NCBI RefSeq assembly: GCF_030295995.1
Contig: NZ_AP027365.1
Span: 3,194,066-3,258,065 of the forward strand
Direction of reading: 5' to 3'
Origin: Thalassotalea hakodatensis
GTDB taxonomy: Bacteria > Pseudomonadota > Gammaproteobacteria > Enterobacterales > Alteromonadaceae
Length of the DNA stretch: 64,000 nt
Under the pieces are notes generated by a model. That model did not search any database. It had not been told where the DNA came from and saw only the letters and a list, made by a program, of their open reading frames with translations. The position numbers and the translations under genes were made by a program. Positions 2,619-8,380 of this stretch are shown one piece after another; the stretch's first letter is position 1, and each line of letters opens with the position of its first letter.

Positions 2619-2798
2619 ATGCGTGAATTAAACGTAAATGAAACTGAAAATGTAAATGGTGGGGTTTTCATAAACCCTTTAACGATTGCTTTAGGCATTA
2701 GAGTAGCCAAAATTGCAGCACCTCATCTAAAAAGAGCGGGTATAGCTATTGGTTCTGCAATTGCAGCTGCTGCTGGCTTCGAGCATGGAAATTCATAA
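2619..2798 (+). CDS. Double-glycine leader peptide 1 (bacteriocin-like)
   Basis: A 59-aa product with the leader MRELNVNETENVNGG matching the class II bacteriocin leader pattern (charged M-R/K-E-L start, conserved E and V, GG before the cut). The predicted mature peptide of 44 residues is hydrophobic and amphipathic. It contains a GxxxG motif (GIAIG) in a small-residue-rich helix (AGIAIGSAIAAAAG). I chose the ATG at 2619 because AAAAAGGA sits at proper spacing and the leader has its usual length; an in-frame ATG at 2577 would add 14 residues. Its TAA overlaps the next ATG by one base, which suggests translational coupling. Antimicrobial or signalling function is inferred from the leader and not proven. 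Confidence 0.75.
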   Translation: MRELNVNETENVNGGVFINPLTIALGIRVAKIAAPHLKRAGIAIGSAIAAAAGFEHGNS

Positions 2799-2983
2799 TG
2801 AAGATCTTAAATGACTATCAAGTTAAACAGGTTAATGGTGGAGTCTTCATTAGTGCAATTATTGTAATCGGAGGCAGTTATTTAGGTGGCTATATTTATG
2901 GTCGCTTAACGAGGCCTACTCCTCCGCCAAAACCAATAGAGCCTTGTAGCCCTAATCCTACTACTGGAAAACAATGCGCATAA
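2798..2983 (+). CDS. Double-glycine leader peptide 2 (partner of peptide 1)
   Basis: A 61-aa product whose leader MKILNDYQVKQVNGG ends in GG. The first mature residues are VFI, as in peptide 1. The mature part (46 aa) begins with a hydrophobic glycine-zipper segment carrying GxxxG motifs (GSYLG, GYIYG). It then turns proline-rich and ends with two cysteines (in PCSPNP and KQCA) that could form a disulfide. The start codon overlaps the stop of peptide 1 by one base. Two adjacent, coupled GG-peptides with GxxxG motifs resemble two-peptide (class IIb) bacteriocins; that pairing is inference. Confidence 0.72.
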   Translation: MKILNDYQVKQVNGGVFISAIIVIGGSYLGGYIYGRLTRPTPPPKPIEPCSPNPTTGKQCA

Positions 2984-3035: not shown

Positions 3036-3347
3036 ATGAAGTCATCCACTTGCCCACATTGTCACAGAATGATTAAAAAGAATACTTTAAAGGAACTGAA
3101 AAACACGCCATCTATACTTTGTCCATATTGTATTAAACCTATTCGTATTAGTGAACGTCATATTGACTTTACCGTTTACTTTTTTTCGGCATTATCGGGT
3201 ATTGTAGGTTATGGTATTTATAAGTGGCCAATAGCAGAATTAGTTATATTCATTGCTATTTTTAGCGTGGTTTATGGTGTATTTTTTAAATCGAACATTG
3301 GTATATACTTCCCACTTGAAAAAGGAGAAGAAGAAGATGTTTTTTAA
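3036..3347 (+). CDS. Zinc-ribbon, two-helix membrane protein (possible immunity/accessory)
   Basis: A 103-aa protein I do not recognise. The N-terminus has two CPxC knuckles (CPHC at residues 6-9, CPYC near 39-42) forming a probable zinc ribbon. Two membrane segments follow (about residues 48-64 and 68-84), with a short acidic tail (EKGEEEDVF). It lies 52 bp after peptide 2 on the same strand and is probably co-transcribed. Small membrane proteins beside bacteriocin genes are often immunity factors; here that is only positional inference. Confidence 0.6.
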   Translation: MKSSTCPHCHRMIKKNTLKELKNTPSILCPYCIKPIRISERHIDFTVYFFSALSGIVGYGIYKWPIAELVIFIAIFSVVYGVFFKSNIGIYFPLEKGEEEDVF

Positions 3348-3407
3348 TGCTTTGCTTTCATCCTTTCTCAAAAATATCATTGTTCATTTTTAAAGTATAT
3401 TTGTAAG

Positions 3408-3714
3408 TTGTGAATTCCAAACACCATTAAATGGCTTGCGATCAAAGTGTATCGTCACAACAACACGTTGAACACTTACTTACTTTAGCTGACAAAAAAG
3501 TTTTATCATTACATGTCAGGCATCAAAGCACGATGGAAACTGCACTTTGCAAACACAGTTTTTAAGACACGTTGTATATGAACCAAGTAAAATTAACGCG
3601 CAAAAATATATTAAGCAAGGCGTTCAAGGTAAAGATATTCGTTTAGCGATGGATAAGGAAAAACTAGCCATTATTCAACAATTACAAGCCCAACACATCA
3701 AAAACACTCAATAA
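3408..3714 (+). pseudogene. Degenerate copy of the cca 3' end
   Basis: Nucleotides from about 3408 follow the cca coding sequence from about 1987. The copy has frameshifting indels, substitutions and an internal deletion of about 55-60 bp. Its last stretch, ending in the same TAA at 3712-3714, is nearly identical to the real gene. It has no start and cannot encode a working enzyme. It is the left part of the duplicated block that brought a second promoter and leader to peptide 3. Confidence 0.9.
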
Positions 3715-3838
3715 TCAAATCCAATTTTCATTGTATTTTTATTAAATAAACTCACTAACCCATTAATAATTAAAATAATTTCAATTCACAATGTTTCCAC
3801 AAGTAATAATCAAAAACATTACTGTTAGACTTCTAATA

Positions 3839-3853
3839 TTCTTGCTTCAAGAA
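3839..3853. promoter_or_regulatory. 15-bp palindrome upstream of peptide gene 3 (candidate operator)
   Basis: The same TTCTTG-CTT-CAAGAA inverted repeat as at 2480-2494, at a similar distance (about 125 bp) from the ATG at 3978. It is unmutated although the flanking DNA carries substitutions and indels. Confidence 0.4.
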
Positions 3854-3977
3854 CATATTTGTCGCATTAAGAAGCTACTTAGCAATTCTTCTATTCCTGC
3901 ATCTGTAGGGGTGGAGAATAACAGGCTAATTTAACATGGAATTAGTAAATTTAATTGAAACAAAAAGGAATTTAATT

Positions 3978-4250
3978 ATGCGTGAATTAAGCATGAATGA
4001 AATAGAAAAAGTAAAAGGCGGTGCATTATTTTTTGGTGCGGCTGTTGGTGCTATTGCTGGCGGAGCAAACGCTTATGCTGATGGCGGTGATTTAGGAGAT
4101 GTAGTAGCAGGTGCTTTTGTGGGAGGAGTTTCTGGTTTTTTTGGTGGAGCAGGAGGAATGCTATGGAATAATGGTGCTAGATTAGCGGGAAGCATCTCAG
4201 GTGGTGGTAGTATATTTTTTGCCTCACTCCCTTCGTTATCAAGAAGATAA
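3978..4250 (+). CDS. Double-glycine leader peptide 3 (glycine-rich)
   Basis: A 90-aa product with leader MRELSMNEIEKVKGG, close to that of peptide 1 and preceded by the same AAAAAGGA ribosome site. The predicted 75-residue mature part is very rich in Gly and Ala (GAAVGAIAGGANAYA, GAFVGGVSGFFGGAGG) with many GxxxG repeats, then a basic end (SLSRR). This composition suits a membrane-inserting bacteriocin. The core is unrelated to peptide 1 although promoter and leader are duplicated, so leader and core appear to have been recombined. An in-frame ATG at 3936 is less likely. Confidence 0.73.
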   Translation: MRELSMNEIEKVKGGALFFGAAVGAIAGGANAYADGGDLGDVVAGAFVGGVSGFFGGAGGMLWNNGARLAGSISGGGSIFFASLPSLSRR

Positions 4251-4313
4251 ACATAACACGCATACAATAGTTAGCTTGTATTTCTTGTATGCTATTTATC
4301 GGAGAAAGAGAAG

Positions 4314-4616
4314 ATGGTTAATTTTTTTGCTAAGTACTGCTCGTTATACACAACGTGGGATATAAATAGTATCGCCAAGTGGGAACATCAAAAACAAGCA
4401 GGCATAGTTAAATTTATATTAGTTGAAGGAGTTATAAAATGGGGGATATTTTCGGCATTGATTTTTCTCAGCATAACCCTTACAGGAAAAGAATTTGGTT
4501 CAAAAGAAGTAATTACAACATGTTTAATTTGGCTAGTTGCTTCAATAGTATATGGTTCTTCACTTTGGTACGGTACATCTGTAGCTTACAATGCACAACT
4601 TAAAACAAGGCGATAA
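4314..4616 (+). CDS. Small two-helix membrane protein (possible immunity)
   Basis: A 100-aa unrecognised protein. It has a soluble basic N-terminal half and two membrane segments (about residues 39-57 and 67-88), and ends in a basic tail (KTRR). AGAAAGAGAAG precedes the ATG as the ribosome site. It follows peptide 3 by 63 bp, the same arrangement as the zinc-ribbon protein after peptides 1 and 2. An immunity or accessory role for peptide 3 is plausible but unproven. Confidence 0.6.
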   Translation: MVNFFAKYCSLYTTWDINSIAKWEHQKQAGIVKFILVEGVIKWGIFSALIFLSITLTGKEFGSKEVITTCLIWLVASIVYGSSLWYGTSVAYNAQLKTRR

Positions 4617-4815
4617 ATTAATTAGTTCATATTTTGTTTTTTTAACTCATCATGCGCTAAAAGCTTAGACCTTAAGGAGAGATTTCTGCTTAATTTGAAG
4701 AATAGCTTTCTTTAGTAGCTTTATGATTTTTGCACTCACCATCAAATAGTTATGTACTAAAAGAATTAAAATCTTTAAAGATCGATATAAGCATGAATAA
4801 AAGTGTTAACGAATA

Positions 4816-5766
4816 ATGGATATTTCTATGTACAAAGTACGCTTTTTTTGGGGTAATGAAAAATATTTAGACAGTGAGAGTATTTTAACCGCTCTAAAAT
4901 ATCGTTTGATAAACCCCGTTACGCTTATTCAAAAAGAAGGTGTTTATCTTTTACCTGAAGAATGGAAAGAATTTAGTGCAACAAGTATTTACAGAAGAGA
5001 AACTTATATTGACAAAGCATTACTAGAAGTAAAATTTTTAGGCACCCTTTTTTTTCTTTACTTCTTTTACTTAGTTTTTTTTGATTTTGACTATGAAAAA
5101 ATTTCTTATGTGATCGCATTTGCATCAATCCTTTGTCTGATCCCTTTATATATTATTAAATTAGATCGAGAGGTTATTAAAAGCTTTCAAAAACAAAAAT
5201 CGAGTTTCATATCACGCTATAGAGCCATGACAATTATTGAAAGTAGTAGGGCATACCTCCCTCTGATCATATCCCCAATAATTATATACCTGCCAGCAAG
5301 CATTTTTTTTCAGGAGGAGAGCACTTTACCTAGCTTTCTCTATAATGTATTTAAACATAATAGCTTATTGCATTGGGCACTTAATTTTACCGGGTTGATT
5401 TGGTGTATAAAAATTATTGAAGGTCGGTTTTCAATACTCAATACCTTACTTATATTGATAACTATTTTTGCAATTACCTTTTGTTTATATAAATACATAC
5501 ATGTAAACCATGGAAATGGTTTATCTGGAATTTTATATGCCCTACTTCCATTTGTTGTTTTTATTTCTTATGAGGTGAGGTGCTTTACAAGACTAAAAGA
5601 GTATATAGGATCTTTTATTATTCTGACTAGCGCTAGCCTGTTAGTGTTATCTTACATAGATACAATTGGCCATCTCTTAGGTCTATTTTCAGGCATTGCA
5701 GTATTGAGTGTGCATCAAATTTTGTTAAAGAACGTTCAGAATAAAGCTCAACTACAGGCAAAATGA
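4816..5766 (+). CDS. Rhomboid-family intramembrane serine protease
   Basis: A 316-aa polytopic protein. The last 170 residues carry the rhomboid signature in order. HxxxN (H186, N190 in FKHNSLLHWALNF) matches the TM2 motif of GlpG. GLSG contains the catalytic Ser237. HxxGxxxG contains the partner His286. The N-terminal 60 residues are soluble and might be a GYF_2-like fold (ending EEWKEF, low certainty); membrane segments follow from about residue 70. Rhomboids cut substrates within or next to membrane helices at small residues. It sits among double-glycine peptides and may process or remove them; that role is inference. The ATG at 4828 is an alternative start. Confidence 0.78.
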   Translation: MDISMYKVRFFWGNEKYLDSESILTALKYRLINPVTLIQKEGVYLLPEEWKEFSATSIYRRETYIDKALLEVKFLGTLFFLYFFYLVFFDFDYEKISYVIAFASILCLIPLYIIKLDREVIKSFQKQKSSFISRYRAMTIIESSRAYLPLIISPIIIYLPASIFFQEESTLPSFLYNVFKHNSLLHWALNFTGLIWCIKIIEGRFSILNTLLILITIFAITFCLYKYIHVNHGNGLSGILYALLPFVVFISYEVRCFTRLKEYIGSFIILTSASLLVLSYIDTIGHLLGLFSGIAVLSVHQILLKNVQNKAQLQAK

Positions 5767-5831: not shown

Positions 5832-6002
5832 ATGAAATTTTACCAATATTTTGGCGTTACTTCCTTTTTTGGTTTTGGCATATTTATTTTTAATAGTTGG
5901 TATTCTGGACAGCTACAGATTGAGGTATTAAGTATTTTATTAATTTCAATTGCCATATCAGTTACCGCTAACATCTTACGGATTTATATTGATAAAACAT
6001 AG
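5832..6002 (+). CDS. Small two-helix membrane protein
   Basis: A 56-aa protein with two hydrophobic segments (about residues 9-25 and 33-50) and a basic C-terminus. I start it at the ATG at 5832; an upstream in-frame TTG at 5814 is less likely. It lies 65 bp after the rhomboid gene and 24 bp before peptide 4. No family is recognised. Size and position fit an immunity protein for peptides 4/5, by inference only. Confidence 0.5.
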   Translation: MKFYQYFGVTSFFGFGIFIFNSWYSGQLQIEVLSILLISIAISVTANILRIYIDKT

Positions 6003-6026
6003 TTGCTGGTTGTAAGAGGACTAAGC

Positions 6027-6155
6027 ATGAATGAATTAACTACTGTAAATGGTGGTGCGGCTCTCATTTTATGGACAATATTATTGCTTGGCCATGAAGC
6101 ACTAAACGAACTTGGCAGAGGTATTGGTGCTGGCGTTTACGATGCAACACATTAA
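6027..6155 (+). CDS. Double-glycine leader peptide 4
   Basis: A 42-aa ORF. TAAGAGGA at 6012-6019 is a good ribosome site for the ATG at 6027. The leader is unusually short (MNELTTVNGG) but keeps the E, V and NGG pattern. The mature 32 residues contain a hydrophobic start (AALILWTILLLG) and GRGIGAG, which holds two overlapping GxxxG motifs. It ends VYDATH, echoing YEITH at the end of peptide 5. It lies 10 bases before the GTG of peptide 5. Pairing with peptide 5 as a two-component bacteriocin is the simplest reading. Confidence 0.65.
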   Translation: MNELTTVNGGAALILWTILLLGHEALNELGRGIGAGVYDATH

Positions 6156-6165
6156 GGAGTCAATA

Positions 6166-6306
6166 GTGAAAAATTTAAATATAAATGAATTAAAAGCTGT
6201 AAGTGGTGGTGGCCTAATGAGAGAGATTGGTTATGAAATTGGCAGTGGGCTAGCCGGAGATTGGGGTAAAGAGCTGGGCGGCTGGTTATATGAGATAACT
6301 CATTAA
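6166..6306 (+). CDS. Double-glycine leader peptide 5
   Basis: A 46-aa product starting at GTG 6166, preceded by AAGGAG at 6154-6159, which overlaps the stop of peptide 4. The leader MKNLNINELKAVSGG is a standard double-glycine leader. The mature 31 residues (GLMREIGYEIGSGLAG and on) carry several GxxxG motifs (GYEIG, GKELG) and end WLYEITH. It is probably translated together with peptide 4. An upstream in-frame start at 6112 would only read through the peptide 4 region in another frame and is rejected. Confidence 0.7.
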   Translation: MKNLNINELKAVSGGGLMREIGYEIGSGLAGDWGKELGGWLYEITH

Positions 6307-6365: not shown

Positions 6366-7247
6366 ATGTTACAAATATTAAAAAAAAGCCCCATAGCGAG
6401 AATTATTACACTACTCATTCTTTCACAACTCATGGCAGGGTTGATACTTATTCCTTTTTTTAGTCTAAATATTATTAATCCCAACGACTTTAATATTGAA
6501 GCTTTAGGCATTGAGTTAATGTCACTTATTTTTTTGCTACAAGCTGCGGCTAATTTATTTTTAATTTACCAATTGCAAAAGAACTATGATAAACAACCTT
6601 TTCTTCAGATTGGTTTTTCTCGTGAAAATTTATTAAAAAAAATTAGCTTTGGATTAGGCGGCGGCGTTATTTCCATAATAATTATTTACCTGATTTTGTT
6701 ATTTTCAGGTCTAATTGAAACATCTACTAATACTGTTAATTTATATCACTTTGCTTGGTACTTCGGACTTTTCTCAATTGTTGCTGTTAATGAAGAACTT
6801 CTCGTAAGAGGCTACATTTTAAAGAGCTTGTTAGGTTCACAACATAAATATATAGCGATAATAATTTCTGCTTTAATTTTTATGATACTTCACTCTGGAA
6901 ATAGTGATGTTTCGTTACTTAGTTTTATAAACCTATTGTTGGTAGGTATATTTTTAGGGCTGTATTATACCTATTTCAAAGATCTATGGTTTCCTATCGG
7001 TTTCCATTTCACATGGAACTTTATCCAAGGGCCAGTATTAGGCTTTCCTGTGAGCGGACTTCCAGTTGAAGGTTTGTTAATACAAAAATTCACAGGTAAT
7101 TCAGCCATAACTGGGGGAGAGTTTGGTTTAGAGGGGTCTTATCTTACTATGGCTCTTTTAGTACTTTTATGTCTAATCGTTTGGCGTATAAATCATCAAA
7201 CTGATGGTAAACATCACAAGGTTATTACCAAACAAAGTTTAATATAG
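6366..7247 (+). CDS. CPBP-family intramembrane glutamic protease
   Basis: A 293-aa protein with about eight membrane segments. It has the three CPBP (CAAX protease/bacteriocin-processing, Abi) motifs: EExxxR at E143-E144-R148 (NEELLVRG), FxxxH at F172-H176 and HxxxN at H214-N218. AAGGAGGAA precedes the ATG. It follows peptide 5 by 59 bp. In lactic acid bacteria, CPBP proteins (PlnI, SkkI and relatives) lie in bacteriocin operons and give self-immunity, which is the best precedent here. Leader processing or substrate destruction are other options. Confidence 0.82.
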   Translation: MLQILKKSPIARIITLLILSQLMAGLILIPFFSLNIINPNDFNIEALGIELMSLIFLLQAAANLFLIYQLQKNYDKQPFLQIGFSRENLLKKISFGLGGGVISIIIIYLILLFSGLIETSTNTVNLYHFAWYFGLFSIVAVNEELLVRGYILKSLLGSQHKYIAIIISALIFMILHSGNSDVSLLSFINLLLVGIFLGLYYTYFKDLWFPIGFHFTWNFIQGPVLGFPVSGLPVEGLLIQKFTGNSAITGGEFGLEGSYLTMALLVLLCLIVWRINHQTDGKHHKVITKQSLI

Positions 7248-7363: not shown

Positions 7364-8380
7364 ATGACTAGTATTATCACTCAAAAAAATAACACAATAC
7401 CTACCAAACATAGTGAACTATCACCAATTCAATATCTTAAATGGTTTGTCGTACTTATGATTGTTCCAGTTATATTAAGTCATATGATTTTTAATTTTCT
7501 GTTAGGAATTGAAACAACAGATCTTCGTTTAGCAAGTTTGAATACGGTATTTATGAATAATACCAATTCGCATAAATATTCGGTCATTCAGCGAGAATTA
7601 AATGCTTTAGAGGCACGGCGTTGATTGCAGAGAATGGTTATTCAGGAGAACGTGCTCCTGCGTTCTCTAATGAGCTACATCCTTGTAGCGTCCTTTTCAA
7701 AATCAACAACACAGGCTATGAAGCGTTTAAACTCGCCCTTTGGGAGCGTGTTAGAGGCGCGATAATTGCGCAAAACGTGTTTGATGTAGAACAACTATAC
7801 CTGCACACGTTTCGCTTATTCCCCCACCTCTGACATCGCTCTGAACTGACTTAATCTTTATGCGAATTGGTATAACATCTTAGTGGCGGTGTTATCAACC
7901 CCATTCATTCATCATGTCTATAAACTTGCTCCTAACATTCTCTGTGTACAAAGGGTCTCAACAAAACACATTGTTCGCATTATTATGTTTTGTACATTTA
8001 TCAGTATTTTTTTCACGTTTTGCTATCAATGGTTTGACATAGAACAGTCAGACTTTCTTGACAGGTTAAGCGACTCAGCTTTAACCTTATTATTAGGCTT
8101 TATTGTTATTTGTCTGATTGGCCCAGTATTAGAAGAGATTTTATATCGAGGAATACTATTTACTGGACTACAACGTACAGGAATGCATACTTCACTTGTA
8201 CTAATTATAACAACATCAATTTTTACCTTTATACATGTTCAATATGACGCTCAACAACTCGCCTTTATTTTTATTTACGGTTTATTGCTCGGGATCATTA
8301 GATACAAAACTAATAATATTCTTTTATGTATTGCAATTCACATGATACATAACGTTTACAATTTATTTTTTTATATATAG
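7364..8380 (+). pseudogene. CPBP intramembrane protease gene split by a MITE
   Basis: The first part (7364-7560) encodes a soluble start and one membrane helix. The second (7876-8380) holds EExxxR (EEILYR), FxxxH (FTFIH) and HxxxN (HMIHN), all three CPBP motifs. Between them lies a 312-bp inverted-repeat element flanked by TAA/TAA. Removing the element and one TAA joins the halves in frame as a 233-aa protein with no stop (702 bp = 234 codons). The current 5' ORF ends after 20 element-encoded residues (stop 7624). A GTG at 7883 could start a 165-aa remnant that still has all catalytic motifs, so partial function cannot be excluded. Confidence 0.85.
7561..7872. mobile_element. MITE family A, copy 1 (312 bp)
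   Basis: It has perfect terminal inverted repeats TACCAATTCGCATAA/TTATGCGAATTGGTA and a 3-bp TAA duplication (7558-7560 and 7873-7875). It has no transposase and only meaningless short ORFs. The second copy is at 21311-21574, inverted and with an internal deletion of about 50 bp. The TWA target choice resembles IS5-family (TNA) transposition; the helper transposase is not in the window. Confidence 0.88.

Follow-up and report, generated by a model that had tools for sequence, protein, structure and literature searches.

A divergent rhomboid in a class II microcin-like locus of Thalassotalea hakodatensis is a putative self-immunity protease

The window analysed here, 64,000 nucleotides of the Thalassotalea hakodatensis contig NZ_AP027365.1, contains an open reading frame for a divergent rhomboid that retains all of its catalytic residues and is predicted to be an intramembrane protease. 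It lies among short genes for double-glycine peptides, and rhomboids of the same layout in other bacteria are repeatedly found next to genes of that kind, a link that is real and recurrent. We propose, by analogy with bacteriocin immunity proteases of another class and at a probability of roughly 0.48, that the window rhomboid is a component of a class II bacteriocin/microcin module and a putative self-immunity protease, one whose task is probably to shield the producer against its own peptide, not to remove the peptide leader. For the window gene itself, the proposal draws on architecture, catalytic residues and locus. A wider and somewhat more tentative proposal is that such proteins constitute an undescribed immunity family in Gammaproteobacteria and Burkholderiales, in which rhomboid serine proteases would cut the cognate Gly/Ala-rich class II microcin in the membrane and of which the window gene would be a divergent member.

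The rhomboid of the window

The first-pass annotation had identified a rhomboid at positions 4816–5766 with H186 and N190, S237 in GLSG, and H286 as its catalytic set. These assignments hold exactly as claimed: the residues occur in the conserved order, with H286 in the sequence HLLGLFSG, and together with H181, G235, G289 and G293 they form invariant columns in a 10-protein alignment with relatives. The equivalent residues of E. coli GlpG (H150, N154, S201 and H254) carry numbers that are lower by 36 in the case of H150, N154 and S201 and by 32 in that of H254. In a Pfam search the protein matched only PF01694 (Rhomboid), at 26.0 bits as a protein and 28.8 bits in the genome search, both above the cut-off of 22.6, and no PF02517 (CPBP/Abi) domain was found. 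Of the three rhomboids in the host genome, which include GlpG and a rhombosortase-like protein, it has the weakest PF01694 score. The similarity is not due to chance, because none of 500 shuffles of the window protein equalled its score against a rhomboid-family HMM and because a GlpG profile matches its core (hhalign, E = 5.9e-7). The likelier start codon is the ATG at 4828 (MYKVRFF...), since a degenerate copy in the congener Thalassotalea sp. 1_MG-2023 (G004) retains this ATG and lacks that at 4816.

The predicted protein comprises a soluble N-terminus (residues ~1–65), two extra transmembrane segments (69–87 and 96–114) and a six-TM core that carries the catalytic residues. By hydropathy there are eight transmembrane segments, two more than in GlpG. 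The first begins near residue 69, so the earlier estimate of about 60 soluble residues ahead of the membrane part was correct. The core is what the protein shares with GlpG and other housekeeping rhomboids; it differs from them in its two additional segments, its different soluble N-terminus, its setting in a peptide locus, and the absence from the alignment of the conserved WR motif of the L1 loop.

AlphaFold2 without an alignment gave an unusable model of the window protein (pLDDT 53), while a 10-sequence alignment yielded a moderate one (pLDDT 62, pTM 0.55), with the core blocks mostly at 53–88. When this model was compared with the PDB by VIA-align, the 21 best rows were all GlpG, with Z-scores of 10.1–11.6 over model residues 153–312, and the next unrelated chain scored 8.3, below every GlpG row. 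Foldseek also ranked GlpG first, but with no match at E ≤ 0.001. The core of the window protein is accordingly modelled, at moderate confidence, with the six-TM rhomboid fold. The N-terminal part is resolved only at low confidence, as a β-β-α-β-β arrangement of which the PDB comparison barely covers residues 1–55. In the Pfam search no profile matched this part, for which the GYF-like domain suggested earlier is conceivable.

A cassette array of double-glycine peptide genes

The features of the locus are listed in Table 1. Five short open reading frames carry leaders of the MRELxxxExxxVxGG type, which follow the consensus in peptides 1–3 and are shorter in peptide 4; peptide 5 passes the NCBIfam bacteriocin-leader model. 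In each, the GG closes an N-terminal leader of 10–15 residues and a hydrophobic stretch follows. Judged by their sequences, the peptides are ordinary class II double-glycine (microcin/bacteriocin-like) precursors, with predicted antibacterial activity. Peptide 5 is likely the two-peptide partner of peptide 4, and the intact CPBP gene that follows is the putative immunity gene of this pair. The 103-aa CxxC protein may be an accessory or immunity gene for peptides 1 and 2, and the 100-aa two-TM protein is a candidate immunity protein. Peptide 3, the 100-aa gene and the rhomboid follow one another on the same strand and in the same array; by eye, no peptide remnant was recognisable just 5′ of the rhomboid, between 4617 and 4815. 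A PADLOC search gave no match for an anti-phage defence reading of the locus.

Table 1. Features of the peptide locus (positions in the window).
Feature	Position	Strand	Evidence and remarks
Double-glycine peptide 1 (MRELNVNETENVNGG-...)	2619..2798	+	ORF and leader
Double-glycine peptide 2	2798..2983	+	TIGR03949 (class IIb model) 21.1 bits, just under cut-off 21.5
103-aa CxxC membrane protein	3036..3347	+	Weak TIGR04104 match; one TM segment
Duplicated cca 3′ tail and intergenic/leader region, border of rhomboid module	3404..4021	+	Direct repeats
Double-glycine peptide 3, glycine-rich	3978..4250	+	ORF and leader; alternative upstream start 3936
100-aa two-TM membrane protein, directly 3′ of peptide 3	4314..4616	+	ORF, TM prediction
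Rhomboid protease ORF	4816..5766	+	316 aa; 312 aa from likelier start 4828
56-aa membrane protein, 3′ of rhomboid	5832..6002	+	ORF, one TM segment
Double-glycine peptide 4	6003..6155	+	Conserved in L027, L029, L152; ATG at 6027 also possible
Double-glycine peptide 5	6166..6306	+	TIGR01847 18.7 bits vs cut-off 15.7; weak lactococcin G-alpha match
CPBP (CAAX/Abi-type) intramembrane protease	6366..7247	+	PF02517 66 bits
Second CPBP protease gene, split by MITE-like insert ~7558-7875	7364..8380	+	PF02517 74.6 bits, 3′ part

The host genome encodes one C39-peptidase ABC exporter with an HlyD protein, near 3.92 Mb and outside the window, and this is the probable exporter of the window peptides. The region (L012 7993-12706) lies downstream of fusA and holds the HlyD gene, genes for two small membrane proteins, the C39 ABC exporter gene, and also two short open reading frames with GG-type leaders.

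The first-pass annotation had taken the GG and the hydrophobic helix behind it for a new substrate geometry, cut at the N-terminal GG by a rhombosortase-like enzyme. The peptides are real and do have a GG ahead of a hydrophobic stretch, but this GG ends a standard class II leader (TIGR01847). Since a GG followed by a helix is the ordinary geometry of class II precursors, no new rhomboid chemistry is needed, and an exporter with a C39 peptidase is present in the genome and adjoins the rhomboid in three relatives. As for the enzyme, the window protein resembles the rhombosortases of GlyGly-CTERM systems (PMC3237569, PMC6219818) in being a divergent, small-group rhomboid, and rhombosortase is its best NCBIfam match. 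That match is sub-threshold, at 23.2 bits against an equivalog cut-off of 84 for TIGR03902, and the window protein has an N-terminal domain and two TM helices that rhombosortases lack. Rhombosortase substrates carry their GG in a C-terminal tripartite tail (GG, TM helix and basic tail), unlike the window peptides. A separate rhombosortase-like gene lies elsewhere in the genome, and a profile of such proteins gave no significant match to the window protein. Cleavage of the peptides by a rhombosortase-like enzyme is therefore barely credible.

The locus is organised as a cassette array that turns over where cca ends. Copies of the cca 3′ tail with the promoter/leader region occur within 1988–2662 and 3404–4021 and are about 91% identical over two long blocks; further cca-tail copies border other double-glycine peptides in a genome of the same species (G001) and in G004. 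Across strains, the tail and promoter/leader region border different peptide modules (the window, L152, L026 and L029). Peptides 4 and 5 with the CPBP protease form a block that is kept in the locus-bearing congeners (L027, L029, L152). An intact copy of the window rhomboid is absent from G001, G002, G003 and G004. The degenerate copy in G004 consists of the 100-aa gene and the first rhomboid codons, at 83% DNA identity to window positions 4253–4867, followed by a frameshift and the end of the contig; the 100-aa gene is kept there although peptide 3 is lost. The peptide array of G004 (L026 2407-2976) also contains a C39 ABC exporter gene reduced to an N-terminal piece of 189 aa. The element that interrupts the second CPBP gene (window 7558–7875) is MITE-like, ~316 bp long with 27-nt terminal inverted repeats, and is present, complete or in part, dozens of times throughout the genome and also in congeners; in L029 the CPBP gene is uninterrupted.

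Rhomboids linked to double-glycine peptides

No full-length homologue of the window protein was found in the genus, family, order, class, plasmid, phage, viral and genome collections. Direct searches returned generic rhomboid cores only, with family-level matches mostly to GlpG. Besides its degenerate copy of the window gene, the congener G004 encodes a second rhomboid with the size and layout of the window protein; its gene (L035) begins 51 nt after that of a double-glycine peptide. Apart from the noticing of this first case, peptides played no part in seeding the family search, for which this rhomboid was the query. Against the genomes of the family, the query found twelve further places, ten of which matched over most of their length. 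In the GTDB collection, Alteromonas confluentis and Alteromonas sp. C1M14 were among the matches, and Massilia sp. CF038 and three metagenome-assembled genomes were added. In all, we obtained 15 non-redundant rhomboid loci of this architecture, from Alteromonadales, other Gammaproteobacteria and the Burkholderiales genus Massilia. No full-length match to the peptide-linked rhomboids was found in the plasmid and viral collections.

A double-glycine (GG or GA) peptide gene lies directly upstream of the rhomboid at 12 of the 15 loci, with a spacing that ranges from a 2-nt overlap to 232 nt and is no more than ~70 nt at 11 of the 15. No such peptide precedes any of 63 other rhomboids, and only 1 of 3000 Markov-shuffled upstream regions contained one. 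The difference (12/15 versus 0/63) corresponds to a Fisher p of ~1e-11, a significance inflated by relatedness. Many of the controls are actinobacterial, but the linkage reaches across several Alteromonadales genera, further Gammaproteobacteria and Burkholderiales. The earlier claim of a rhomboid with an additional soluble N-terminal domain inside a peptide locus is upheld, and the link between such rhomboids and GG peptides recurs. The proteins are ~320–350 aa long, with a soluble N-terminus, two TM segments and the rhomboid core. Every intact member keeps the catalytic Ser, His and Asn, many pairs being at ~14–25% identity to the reference sequence; in one member (L055) a stop interrupts the reading frame. 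The mature peptides of the linked loci consist of 35–55% Gly/Ala/Ser. Over 12 pairs, the more similar two mature peptides are, the more similar their rhomboids tend to be (Mantel r = 0.69 for pairwise identities, matched by 0 of 10000 permutations), a correlation that would also arise from joint inheritance of the module.

L135 and L136 are compact operons of hlyD, peptide, rhomboid and C39 ABC exporter, with no other gene between, and L074 has the same order. The rhomboid occurs without a recognisable peptide at L044 and L048, and the region upstream of it at L047 holds only a peptide-like remnant with no leader in frame. At L140 (7166-8125) and L141 (6971-8005), family rhomboids stand alone among unrelated genes, as orphan immunity genes would. 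In another genus, a small CxxC membrane protein similar in layout to that of the window (L051 3486-3770) is encoded 3′ of a peptide-linked rhomboid. Rhomboids from metagenome-assembled genomes of Carboxylicivirga (L061 7857-8984) and Akkermansiaceae (L071 4697-5860) have a similar soluble N-terminus and extra TM segments and no adjoining double-glycine peptide; the layout thus also occurs outside bacteriocin loci.

The window protein has the layout of the family, with 316 aa and eight TM segments. The family HMM gave it 14 bits, more than all 500 shuffles and less than every other rhomboid tested, including GlpG and rhombosortase-like controls. In hhalign the family profile aligned with residues 17–296 (E = 6.6e-5), with the signal coming from the core; there the GlpG profile scores better (E = 5.9e-7), and the N-terminal part by itself was not significant against the family HMM. 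Assignment of the window protein to the peptide-linked family by sequence, at 14 bits and with GlpG the better profile, consequently failed. The protein is tied to the family by architecture and context, and descent from it is plausible.

It is also conceivable, though rather improbable, that the window rhomboid is a hitchhiker or a general membrane-quality protease that has no tie to a peptide and reached its position by cassette shuffling at the cca tail. The locus is a recombining array, the gene is missing from G001, no peptide lies directly upstream, and sequence does not place the protein in the peptide-linked family. What argues for a tie is that rhomboids with this layout are strongly and repeatedly linked to double-glycine peptides in different genera and orders, together with the joint retention of the 100-aa gene and the rhomboid start in G004.

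Putative role of the rhomboid in immunity

Class II microcin systems consist of a precursor, an immunity protein, a C39 exporter, HlyD and TolC, and it is the exporter, through its C39 peptidase domain, that takes off the double-glycine leader (PMC9746304). In the mcbABCI operon of Moraxella catarrhalis, the gene next after that of the peptide is the immunity gene (PMC2761928). The loci described here resemble such operons in their double-glycine precursor, C39 ABC exporter, HlyD and a gene in the immunity position behind the peptide; in L135 and L136 the rhomboid occupies this slot, as it is the only gene besides those for the peptide and its export. They differ in that microcin operons have a small protein of 51–216 aa in this position, whereas here it is a rhomboid of ~320 aa with catalytic residues. 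That size, larger than all verified microcin immunity proteins (PMC9746304), counts against an immunity role, as does the order in the window, where the rhomboid follows the 100-aa immunity candidate and not a peptide.

A parallel in role may be found in the CPBP/Abi proteases SkkI, PlnI and PlnL, which are reported to confer bacteriocin immunity and for which a proteolytic mode of action has been proposed (PMC8538875). Like these, the window protein is a multipass intramembrane protease, by prediction, encoded beside double-glycine bacteriocins, and two CPBP genes occur in the window; as it has a serine rhomboid fold, the analogy is in role only. By this analogy, the putative rhomboid immunity proteins would be the serine-protease counterpart of the CPBP/Abi immunity proteases, and the presence of CPBP proteases twice in the same locus would favour an immunity function. 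Against it speaks a CaaX protease encoded near the cdz genes, which was needed for neither killing nor immunity (PMC5380434). A rhomboid protease gene is listed once, with no function given, in the caseicin operons of Lacticaseibacillus (PMC12634818). The likeness is by description only, and those operons are Gram-positive, class IIa and equipped with a separate immunity gene.

The retention of the catalytic residues, the persistence of the rhomboid without an intact peptide (L044, L047, L048) and its divergence alongside the peptide make self-immunity the most likely function. We envisage that the C39 ABC exporter would cut the precursor after GG, as is known for its family, and that the hydrophobic peptide, rich in small residues, would leave the cell through this exporter, HlyD and TolC. 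Peptide inserting from outside into the inner membrane of the producer would be met there by the rhomboid, and recognition could be aided by its soluble N-terminal domain together with the two additional TM helices. The S237/H286 dyad would then cut the Gly/Ala-rich helix, and the pore or receptor complex would be destroyed.

The main rival to immunity, unlikely as it appears, is a role in maturation or export, in which the rhomboid would make a second cut in the peptide, perhaps at the membrane once the GG leader is gone, or release it from the membrane and would be needed for production, not protection. The position of the rhomboid gene between those for peptide and exporter suits this role, and intramembrane proteases of peptide loci can serve production, as deletion of one of them, SilX, abolished bacteriocin activity and left immunity unaffected (PMC9298176). 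A leader protease is, however, already supplied by the C39 domain, and L135 and L136 have no other immunity gene. The rhomboid also persists where the peptide is missing or broken, which counts against a maturase, as such an enzyme would not need keeping.

Protection could alternatively be non-proteolytic, or the rhomboid a receptor, with its fold binding the peptide or hiding the peptide's target. Plain membrane proteins are common among immunity proteins, sensitivity to Smb is influenced by the CAAX protein LsrS independently of its active site (PMC9298176), and the window protein lacks the conserved WR motif. We consider this distinctly unlikely, as a pseudoprotease would not be expected to keep Ser, His and Asn invariant among intact members at 14–25% identity. 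Immunity by proteolysis remains our preferred reading.

A search of the open-access literature gave no study of a rhomboid at work in a microcin or bacteriocin system, and neither bacteriocins nor microcins come up in a 2025 review of rhomboids (PMC12615303). As a published microcin search pipeline sets an upper limit of 250 aa for immunity proteins (PMC9746304), rhomboids in that role would escape it.

Where a peptide gene adjoins the rhomboid, it names a candidate substrate for that enzyme, in small two-gene modules. Most bacterial rhomboids, to our knowledge, are without a known physiological substrate. If the immunity reading is true, these proteins would be a new class of immunity proteins and, within the literature searched, the first serine intramembrane proteases in this role.
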